Under the pieces are notes generated by a model. That model was not told where the DNA came from. It saw only the letters and a list, made by a program, of their open reading frames with translations, and did no database searches. A program made the position numbers and the translations under genes. A stretch of DNA of 64,000 nt from Candidatus Hydrogenedentota bacterium (lineage in GTDB: Bacteria > Hydrogenedentota > Hydrogenedentia > Hydrogenedentales > JAEUWI01). The stretch's first letter is position 1; every line of letters starts with the position of its first letter. The DNA is taken from contig JAHBVV010000016.1 in assembly GCA_019637335.1 (NCBI GenBank), forward strand, positions 62,001-126,000. The letters run 5' to 3'. Positions 40,016 to 42,705 of the stretch are shown here, one piece after another.

Positions 40016-41146
40016 TTAGCGGTTCTCCCGGTGTTTCCGAATCAAATCGCTGCACAGTTCGCCGTTGTGCGCCACGAGGCAGCCGCCCATGATCTCGTCG
40101 TCGTGATCGAGGCGAATCGCCCCGGCTTCCTTGTCCCAGAAATGCTCAATGAGGTTGGCGAGGTTGGCGGTGTACATTTCGCTCGCGTGGACCGGAACCT
40201 GACGCGACAGGTGCGGCAGGCCGACCAGCGTCACGCCGTGGCGCCGGGCGATCTGTCCCATTTCAATCCCTTCGACGTTGCCGCCGCTGTCCACGGCCCC
40301 ATCGACCACGACGCTGCCCGGGCGCATGCGCTGGAGCATGGCGTCGGTCACGATCACCGGCGCGCGGCGGCCGAAGACCTGCGCGGTCGTGATGACGAGA
40401 TCGGATTCGGCGATCACCGACGCAATCGCCTCAACTTCCCGCGCCCGCTGCTCCTCGGTCAATTCGACCGCGTAGCCGTCTTTCGTTTCACCGGTCTCGC
40501 CGAGATCGACCTTCACGAATTTCGCGCCGAGGGATTTGACTTGTTCCTCGACGGCCGGGCGCGTGTCGAAGGCGTCCACCCGCGCGCCGAGGCGCTTGGC
40601 CGTGGCGATCGCCTGAAGCCCAGCCACGCCGACGCCAATGACGAAGACCCGGGCGGGCTTCAGCGTGCCGGCGGGGGTCATCATCATCGGGAGAATCTGC
40701 GGCAAGTGGTTGGCGCCGAGCAGCACGGCCGCATAGCCCGCCAGGTTGGTCTGGCTGCTCAACGCGTCCATTTTCTGGGCCAGCGTCGTGCGCGGGATAA
40801 GCTCCATCGCGATGGCGTTGACGCCGCGGGCGACCATGCCATCGATGGCGCTCTCCGCCGAAAAAGGATCCAGATAACCGATATAGAGCGCCCCACGCGC
40901 TATCGACGCAACCTGATCCGGCGTCGGCCCCTCCAGCCCGATCACCACATCCGCGTCGCCCGGGCCATCCGCCGTTACCGTCGCCCCGGCCAACGAATAG
41001 TCCGCGTCGGTCCAGCCGCACGTCACCCCCAGATCGGGCGGGACGCACACCGCAATCCCCAGGTTGGACAGCCGTTTCGCCCCCGTCGGCGTGAGGGATA
41101 CCCGCGGTTCGTCCGCATGGATCCCTTTGAGTGCATAAAGCTTCAC
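40016..41146 (-). CDS. pntAA: NAD(P) transhydrogenase subunit alpha, NAD-binding part
   Basis: This 376-aa subunit is the soluble NAD(H)-binding domain I, related to alanine dehydrogenase. It begins MKLYALKGIHADEPRVSLTP and contains FVIGVGVAGLQAIATAKRLGARVDAFD with the Rossmann glycines. It also has QVKSLGAKFVKVDLGETGE, VITTAQVFGRRAPVIVTDAML and GSVVVDGAVDSGGNVEG. The GTG at 41146 is chosen over an upstream in-frame ATG because it gives the family N-terminus and a GGAGAG ribosome site precedes it. The gene heads pntAA-pntAB-pntB. Convergent or divergent neighbours do not suggest a regulator. Confidence 0.94.
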   Translation of the reverse strand: MKLYALKGIHADEPRVSLTPTGAKRLSNLGIAVCVPPDLGVTCGWTDADYSLAGATVTADGPGDADVVIGLEGPTPDQVASIARGALYIGYLDPFSAESAIDGMVARGVNAIAMELIPRTTLAQKMDALSSQTNLAGYAAVLLGANHLPQILPMMMTPAGTLKPARVFVIGVGVAGLQAIATAKRLGARVDAFDTRPAVEEQVKSLGAKFVKVDLGETGETKDGYAVELTEEQRAREVEAIASVIAESDLVITTAQVFGRRAPVIVTDAMLQRMRPGSVVVDGAVDSGGNVEGIEMGQIARRHGVTLVGLPHLSRQVPVHASEMYTANLANLIEHFWDKEAGAIRLDHDDEIMGGCLVAHNGELCSDLIRKHRENR

Positions 41147-41562
41147 GTGGGTGCTCTCCCTCCAGAAAAGGCGCCACAGCAACACTGCGGGCCACTATAC
41201 GCCAGCCCGCGCGCACCGCGCAAGCGAACTGGACTTTGAAAAGCGCCAGGTACCGAAGGAGCCGTAATACCACACGCGGCTGTCGGGAAAACGTCTGCTA
41301 TCTCGTCACCCGCGCGTCGAGGCCGCGGCATGGCGCCGATAACCCTCAACTGCGCATTCTGCGTTTGTCGACGGGCAATTATGGCGCCATTCCGGACCTG
41401 CCGATGGCAAACAGGCGCCACAATATATAGAAAATCGATCAAAAATGCCCTGAAACAGCCTTTTTACTGTCCAACTACCATATTTAGTGGGTAGTGACTC
41501 TTTGAGAAATCCAGCATCACAAAATTTAGTGGAAAAAAATTCAAAAAAGCGCTTCAAAGGGG
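41147..41562. other. AT-rich upstream region of the pnt operon and ncRNA gene
   Basis: The first 250 bases are ordinary GC-rich spacer that should contain the minus-strand pnt promoter. From about 41415 the sequence becomes AT-rich. It ends in two A-tracts (GGAAAAAAATTCAAAAAAGC, about 41531-41550) placed directly upstream of the ncRNA minus-35 box, where an UP element would sit. No coding frame is supported. Confidence 0.6.
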
Positions 41563-41591
41563 TTGACACGCCCTACATGTTGTGCTAAGAT
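41563..41591 (+). promoter_or_regulatory. near-consensus sigma-70 promoter of the ncRNA
   Basis: A perfect minus-35 TTGACA (41563-41568), a 17-base spacer and TAAGAT (41586-41591) form one of the best promoters in the window. Two A-tracts at 41531-41550 resemble an UP element, as found at stable RNA genes. Transcription should begin around 41598-41601. Confidence 0.85.
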
Positions 41592-41597
41592 GCGTTC

Positions 41598-41780
41598 GGT
41601 GTTTGGGACTAGAGACTGTTGACAAAACAGTCCACGCGTTGTCAGGGAATACCGCAGCCCAAGACCCCTGACCTAATTCGCAACCGTGACCCTCTTGCGC
41701 CTGGATACACGGAACTGTAGTCCCAGACATTCCCGCACATGGGCGGTGGATTCCCAAGGTCCACCGCCCCCTTCCTTTTC
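41598..41780 (+). ncRNA. structured small RNA gene of unknown class
   Basis: Between the promoter and a perfect terminator lies about 130 bases that fold into a four-way junction. P1 closes the ends: GTTTGGGACTA (41601-41611) with TAGTCCCAGAC (41718-41728), 11 pairs including one G-U. P2 is GACTGTT/AACAGTC (41614-41620/41626-41632). P3 is GTCAGGG/CCCTGAC (41641-41647/41666-41672). P4 is CCGTG/CACGG (41684-41688/41708-41712). The predicted start lies at the base of P1. No ribosome site or sizeable frame is present. It is not 5S, SRP RNA, tmRNA or RNase P by motif. A divergent 6S RNA is possible but not shown. Confidence 0.72.
41741..41780 (+). terminator. rho-independent terminator of the ncRNA
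   Basis: A perfect 10-bp stem, GGGCGGTGGA (41741-41750) and TCCACCGCCC (41760-41769), with a 9-base loop is followed by CCTTCCTTTTC. It ends the transcript about 180 bases after the promoter, before the repeat array. Confidence 0.9.
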
Positions 41781-41816
41781 AGGCGGCGTACGCATCCGGG
41801 CTCCCCAGCCCAGCGC

Positions 41817-42705
41817 GTCAACCCGTGCCACGCGATCGCGCCCCAGCGCGTTCGTGTGCCCGGAGCAACGCAAACCCACCACCGCCAACACCACCCCACA
41901 CGAGCGGCTCCACACACCCCACGCCACCCTCCCGGCGTGCCACGGACAAGCCCGCAAGGGCTTGCCCGTGCCAATCCCCCAGGGACTGACACGCCAAAAC
42001 CACACCAACCACCAAATCAGCCCACACGTCCAACAGAGCACAAACCCACACCACAAACACCCCAACCGGCGGGGCTGTCCCGTCGCCGTCCATCCCAGTC
42101 CCGGGCGTCAACCCGTGCCACGCGATCGCGCCCCAGCGCGTTCGTGTGCCCGGAGCAACACCAGCCCAACACCGCCATTACCACCCCACACGAGCGGCGA
42201 AACCGCCCCACACGAGCGGCAAGACAACCCCACACGAGCGGCTCCACACACCCCACACCCCACGCTCCAGCCCCCCCCTCCCGGCGCGCCACGGACAAGC
42301 CCGCAAGTCAACCCGTGCCACGCGATCGCGCCCCAGCGCGTTCGTGTGCCAGGAGCAACACACACCCACCGCCACCAACATCACCCCACACGAGCGGCTC
42401 CAAACACCCCACACACCAAGCGCCCCTCCCGGCGCGCCACGGACAAGCCCCGCGCGTCATCCCGTGCCACGCGATCGCGCCCCCAAAGGATCGCGGGCAT
42501 TCCTGCCTGCGGAAACGACCGCCCCCACCACCACAACGCCGCACCCTCCTCATTCCACCCCAGCCCCGCCCGTCAACCCGTGCCACGCGATCGCGCCCCA
42601 GCGCGTTCGTGTGCCAGGAGCAACGCACACCCACCACCGCCAACACCACCCCACACGAGCGGCAAAACCACCCCCTTGCCAAAACACCCATACCGGGCTA
42701 TACTG
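41817..42705 (+). repeat. array of hairpin repeat R1
   Basis: Four full R1 units begin near 41824, 42114, 42315 and 42579, with a truncated one at 42463. Each runs from CAACCCGTGCCACGCGATCG through a CGCG/CGCG stem-loop and GGAGCAAC to CCACACGAGCGGC. The units are joined by GCCACGGACAAGCCCGCA half-palindromes, one of which has its full partner arm (41941-41970). Unit 42114 carries three repeats of the CCACACGAGCGGC end. A block at 42487 resembles the 20.1 kb repeats. All long frames here are Pro/His/Arg-rich translations of the repeat and are not genes. Confidence 0.85.

Follow-up and report, generated by a model that had tools for sequence, protein, structure and literature searches.

A stand-alone structured RNA gene family of Candidatus Hydrogenedentota with an NrdR-type operator box in its promoter

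The stretch of DNA analysed here (64,000 nucleotides from a Candidatus Hydrogenedentota bacterium, GenBank assembly GCA_019637335.1, contig JAHBVV010000016.1, positions 62,001 to 126,000 of the forward strand; hereafter the window) contains at 41563-41780 a complete stand-alone RNA gene, composed of a TTGACA-17-TAAGAT promoter, an RNA with a four-way junction and a terminator. That this is a real RNA gene, and the representative of a family of Hydrogenedentota, is practically certain, and the reading given in the initial annotation, a structured RNA gene that stands alone and has no place in Rfam, is supported. The most informative feature of the locus, overlooked in that annotation, is the operator, a palindrome located between the two promoter hexamers which by its sequence is a box for the regulator NrdR. 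The locus may be taken as the founding example of a phylum-wide family of free-standing regulatory RNAs of ~180-250 nt. To our knowledge, no cultured representative of Hydrogenedentota exists.

The promoter, transcript and terminator have the following positions in the window:
41563-41568, forward strand: -35 element TTGACA, from the promoter scan and the homologous promoters
41586-41591, forward strand: -10 element TAAGAT, from the promoter scan
41599-41779, forward strand: predicted non-coding RNA transcript (fold z = -5.65; covariance-model match of 119.8 bits), its 5' end predicted, not mapped
41741-41779, forward strand: intrinsic terminator, a stem-loop of 29 nt, its loop containing CCCAAG, followed by CCTTCCTTTT

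The two hexamers match 10 of 12 consensus bases and are separated by a 17-nt spacer; the promoter scan returned 4 sites of such quality in 4 kb, against 0.7 expected. Among 44 homologous promoters tabulated automatically, the first five bases of the -35 element were identical throughout, the full TTGACA was found in 40, and TANNNT occupied the -10 position in nearly all. Since the tabulation itself demanded a promoter-like match, the independent evidence is that of the loci found by the RNA body alone. The terminator stem (41741-41769) consists of 12 pairs with CCTTCCTTTT directly after it. Both the promoter and the terminator with a U-rich tail were borne out as initially annotated; the promoter description was right in its hexamers but missed the operator palindrome in the spacer and the copies of it at 41418, 41475 and 41517.

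Relatives were detected by DNA search in 27 of 100 genomes. Covariance model R1, for which only the RNA body and not the promoter was used, matched 56 of 68 Hydrogenedentota genomes at E <= 0.0015, with the same promoter and terminator in each, so that the homologues proposed as a check in the initial annotation are indeed present in related genomes. One divergent member missed by R1 (L222, in genome G013) was recovered by box search. Outside the phylum R1 gave only seven weak matches among ~319 genomes (E 0.003 to 0.09), none of them convincing; the promoter box was absent from all five of the seven that were examined, and membership outside the phylum was rejected for these. When 84,980 species of bacteria and archaea were searched with a pattern of the conserved core, it occurred at 20 places, of which 18 belong to Candidatus Hydrogenedentota; the other two, single matches in actinobacteria, are taken as chance. 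Viral contigs contained no exact match of the pattern and plasmids none, by which a phage or plasmid origin was rejected.

Two second matches of R1 were noted within the phylum. L171 (G019:C31:105437-105567; E = 2e-5) is located 5.4 kb from the main RNA gene and lacks the box; it is possibly a decayed duplicate or a chance match to the terminator. L179 (E = 0.09) is also without a box.

For the RNA at 41600-41782 the predicted folding energy is -70.5 kcal/mol (z = -5.65), and none of 200 shuffled sequences is as stable; without the terminator z is still -4.89. In agreement with the closing helix, three internal hairpins and four-way junction of the initial annotation, the predicted fold shows a P1 closing helix, here of 12-13 bp, around three inner arms:
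41599-41611, forward strand: P1 closing helix, 5' strand (fold; covariation)
41614-41632, forward strand: P2 hairpin (fold; homologue comparison)
41641-41672, forward strand: P3 hairpin, the loop exposing CGCAGCCCAA at 41653-41662
41684-41712, forward strand: P4 hairpin CCGTG/CACGG, with loop ACCCTCTTGCGCC at 41689-41701
41718-41730, forward strand: P1 closing helix, 3' strand (fold; covariation)
41732-41738, forward strand: conserved unpaired linker CCCGCAC between P1 and the terminator

Strong covariation across relatives is seen in P1 and in the terminator. In an alignment of 24 sequences 97.5% of the cells pair and 11 pairs are changed on both sides; the covariation score was 0.300, as compared with 0.179 +/- 0.011 in shuffles and <=0.103 for slid partners. 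Changes on both sides affect 5 of 10 pairs in P1, and double compensatory changes 5 of 11 pairs in the terminator stem. As the covariation structure was derived from the same alignment that was scored, a strand swap of P1 was added as a further test, in which the true partners bound better than all 2000 permutations (50 members, eight families). The covariation suggested as a check for P1-P4 was therefore obtained for P1, but P3 and P4 rest on conservation more than on covariation: CAGCCC of the P3 loop is invariant in a 22-row core alignment, and the P4 sequence is nearly invariant, the divergent families excepted. The P3 and P4 loops could pair with each other (CGCAG with UUGCG) in most members, but not in L184 and L150, where the pairing is disrupted; this contact is not claimed.

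Member length ranges from ~175 nt (families f1, f3, f9 and f10) to ~245 nt (f4 and f5), and in the latter two P2 is replaced by an arm of greater length that has a CCGCAGCCC loop of its own. The arms differ largely in f7 and f11, but P1, the terminator, the C-rich linker and loops with CAGCCC are retained. A coding reading of the conserved GTGACCC... frame was rejected; it is not a conserved open reading frame, because insertions and deletions between the close relatives L001 and L003, located between GCGCC and CACGG, shift the frame.

The initial annotation could not match the RNA to a known class, and in agreement with this the search of Rfam 15 gave no match at the gathering threshold and, up to E = 10, only chance-level hairpin matches, and the only match in the window reaching the gathering score is a transfer RNA at another position. 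A divergent 6S RNA had been named as the best known alternative, and the size, the promoter and the near-universal presence in the phylum would fit this or another housekeeping RNA such as that of the signal recognition particle (SRP). In particular, 6S RNA (RF00013) is a stand-alone stable RNA of ~180 nt with a long closing helix. However, the source genome (G000) has a true 6S RNA of its own, above the Rfam cut-off at G000:C9:21730-21918, as have 37 other relatives (38 of 67 genomes in all), and its SRP RNA is located at G000:C18:55883-55982, SRP RNA (RF00169) being found in 20 of 20 genomes. Neither family gives a match at the RNA gene up to E = 10, the RNA is below the cut-off of the 6S model, and its predicted fold is a branched four-way junction with a covarying P1, not a rod with a central bubble. 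Both identities were rejected, and the probability of a housekeeping RNA is considered negligible. The family, absent from Rfam 15 and found throughout the phylum, is available as the R1 model and alignments ready for curation.

The 16-bp palindrome CCACWATATNTTGTGG fills the spacer between the -35 and -10 elements in all 54 main matches within the phylum that have upstream DNA. In the window it is accompanied by three further copies, 53, 95 and 152 bp from it:
41570-41585, forward strand: NrdR-type spacer box GCCCTACATGTTGTGC, weight-matrix score 17.8, at the same position in all homologues examined
41517-41532, forward strand: NrdR-type box TCACAAAATTTAGTGG, the nearest upstream copy (53 bp), score 8.2
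41475-41490, forward strand: NrdR-type box CTACCATATTTAGTGG, the next upstream copy (95 bp), score 12.6
41418-41433, forward strand: upstream NrdR-type box CCACAATATATAGAAA, score 10.8

Extra boxes were found <=230 bp upstream in 36 of the 44 tabulated promoters, against 0.022 expected per promoter, and the partner boxes lie at 53-56, 90-98, 142-143 and 150-164 bp, with a box at 90-98 bp in about half of the promoters. The positions of the upstream boxes are conserved and a single helical phase of 10.5 bp is unsupported (p ~0.2); a period of 11.0 bp fits better and is left uninterpreted.

The box was compared with those of other genes by a weight matrix trained only on the spacer boxes of the RNA promoters and then applied elsewhere. 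Within the phylum, where nrdR is present in 39 of 40 genomes, boxes scoring >= 10 were found before nrdR in 18 of 29 genomes, and boxes scoring >= 16 upstream of many nrdD/nrdJ genes (L060, L061, L089, L091-L095); the background was one site >= 16 in 92.6 kb around 6S genes. In a set of 40 Hydrogenedentota genomes that includes G000, the standard model for the large reductase chain, PF02867, gave matches in only 4, and PF13597 was used as the reductase marker for this reason; the reductases of the phylum are mostly of the NRDD type (PF13597) and in several genomes are encoded directly downstream of nrdR. In E. coli K-12, the first-ranked site of the matrix in each 6-7 kb region falls upstream of nrdA, nrdD and nrdH, and these sites are the known NrdR boxes; the partner sites 31 bp away rank sixth (nrdA), second (nrdD) and third (nrdH). 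Because the matrix marks the nrdR and nrdD/nrdJ promoters of the phylum and the nrd operators of E. coli, the box in the RNA promoter is, as judged by sequence, an NrdR box. Where pairs of boxes were detected at nrdR promoters they are mostly 33 bp (L059, L209) or 41-42 bp apart (f11: L201, L213), both being spacings accepted by NrdR in vitro (PMC12051234).

Control of the RNA gene by NrdR is probable on these grounds. The locus resembles the NrdR regulon of E. coli, Streptomyces coelicolor, Listeria and Streptococcus (PMC12051234, PMC4409342) in a palindrome of 16 bp that shares the consensus and overlaps the promoter, in the presence of nrdR in the genome and in the like boxes found in the phylum at nrdR and at the reductase genes nrdD/nrdJ. 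It differs from that regulon in that the controlled gene is a non-coding RNA, and in having one strong spacer box with partners 5, 9 or more turns away, whereas the known operators are pairs 3 or 4 turns apart.

Several results weigh against control by NrdR. In vitro, NrdR is reported to bind only where two boxes are separated by 14-17 or 24-27 bp, a single box being left unbound (PMC12051234). No second box at such a spacing is present at the RNA promoter, and no averaged partner signal was seen at offsets of 30-34 or 41-43 bp in the 44 RNA promoters, although a few RNA loci do have a canonical partner box, e.g., L168 at 42 bp. In the source genome the boxes at nrdR score only 12.5 and 8.3, and for the reductase gene (L102) no box was detected within 690 bp. 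In addition, the box occurs at genes that make the set wider than the classical NrdR regulon. The promoters of the fliQ operon in 4 genomes of three families (L220, G000:C5:179992; L218, G004:C511:3851; L226, G020:C50:47172; L242, G048:C269:20070) have the arrangement TTGACA/T - CACWATATNTTGTG - GTA, which reproduces the geometry of the RNA promoter, and the box also precedes mraZ, with which the division and cell-wall cluster begins (L229, G010:C27:126345; L216, G023:C96:472).

Either NrdR uses longer-range arrays and a wider regulon in this phylum, or a second regulator shares the box sequence. In the second case the palindrome would be bound by, for example, a cell-cycle or growth regulator whose regulon includes the RNA, fliQ and mraZ, in accordance with the missing second box at 3-4 turns and with the single strong boxes, of identical promoter geometry, at fliQ, as well as those at mraZ in two genomes. 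This explanation is nevertheless unlikely, given that a matrix trained on the RNA promoters ranks the operator regions of E. coli nrdA, nrdD and nrdH first and marks the nrdR and nrdD/nrdJ promoters of the phylum, some of them with the canonical spacing of 30-34 or 41-42 bp.

NrdR-type boxes were also observed before an Xre regulator gene followed by a dnaB-like gene (assigned by eye; L247, G033:C115:8916) and several hundred bases upstream of a thyX-like gene (also by eye; L228, G013:C198:50649).

Published work presents NrdR as a repressor dedicated to ribonucleotide reductase genes (PMC12051234), and no NrdR-controlled non-coding RNA was found in the literature searched, the coverage of which was incomplete. 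The operator suggests that the RNA is tied to the supply of DNA precursors. A coupling in this phylum of NrdR, a sensor of deoxynucleoside triphosphates (dNTPs), to a structured RNA that passes the signal to further genes, through a long-range multi-box operator undescribed for NrdR, is put forward tentatively and falls just short of being favoured. Were this so, other genes would receive the dNTP status of the cell by way of an RNA, and the several boxes of the operator would provide a natural test of the permissible distance between NrdR boxes; the genes for flagellar export and cell division share the box.

The mode of action could then be as follows. NrdR loaded with deoxyadenosine triphosphate (dATP) would bind the box between the -35 and -10 elements of the strong sigma-70 promoter, assisted by the upstream boxes, and keep the gene silent; at low dATP the RNA would be made along with NrdR and ribonucleotide reductase, and would pair in trans, through its repeated C-rich loops, with G-rich stretches of messenger RNAs. 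The gene, its conservation, its structure and the identity of its box with those of nrd operators are computational observations, beyond which we infer the occupancy by NrdR, the direction of control and the antisense action. As a whole, a family of NrdR-controlled, trans-acting, base-pairing RNAs is slightly favoured, an estimate that is generous to the antisense step; given the rest, antisense action is evenly balanced.

The conserved unpaired C-rich motifs are CGCAGCCCAA (in P3, and in P2 of the long forms), ACCCUCUUGCGCC (P4, with ACCCUC as the candidate pairing motif), CCCCGCA (linker) and CCCAAG (terminator loop); a minority of the terminator loops are without the motif. These repeated C-rich unpaired parts favour a trans-acting antisense RNA. 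Redundant unpaired C-rich motifs are typical of LhrC, and the small RNAs of the LhrC / RsaE type (Listeria, Staphylococcus; PMC4132741) are likewise encoded by stand-alone genes with an intrinsic terminator. They have no sequence relation to the present RNA, which is a four-way junction closed by a long conserved helix; its motif is (G)CAGCCCA, whereas theirs is UCCC, and its putative regulator is a dNTP sensor instead of an envelope-stress system. Hfq (PF17209) is absent from 20 of 20 Hydrogenedentota genomes; an antisense RNA would be Hfq-independent, and the lack of Hfq bears on the explanation in both directions. No messenger RNA target emerged, no genome-wide search for one having been made.

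The same absence of Hfq would suit an RNA that is controlled by NrdR but binds protein, with the repeated (G)CAGCCCA loops of P2, of P3 and of the terminator titrating an RNA-binding protein in the manner of a CsrB-like sponge, or serving as a scaffold. Separate hairpin loops carry repeats of the motif, which persists even where the rest diverges (f7, f11), and the structure is conserved beyond the needs of simple antisense RNAs. On the other hand, 1-4 copies of the motif are few as compared with sponges of the CsrB type, the loops differ between arms, and no candidate protein was identified. Protein binding is nearly as plausible a role as antisense action, and as a complete explanation it is rather doubtful.

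The initial annotation had stated that no gene follows which the RNA could regulate in cis, and this agrees with the surroundings of the locus. Right after the terminator begins a cluster (41803-42681) in which a GC-rich repeat of 124 nt with CACGCGATCGCGCCCCAGCGCGTTCGTGTG occurs four times, the copies being 81-90% alike, and in a comparison of 25 loci the downstream genes were not conserved among relatives. A leader or attenuator controlling a downstream gene would end in a terminator, as this RNA does, but the terminator and P1 are not mutually exclusive folds, and because of the repeat cluster and the lack of a conserved downstream gene a cis-regulatory role is very improbable.

Upstream of the RNA gene, pntA and pntB (identified by Pfam) are oriented divergently, and pntA recurs as the neighbour in 7 of the 25 loci compared:
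40016-41185, reverse strand: pntA, NAD(P) transhydrogenase alpha subunit (Pfam PF05222/PF01262), the divergent neighbour outside the RNA gene
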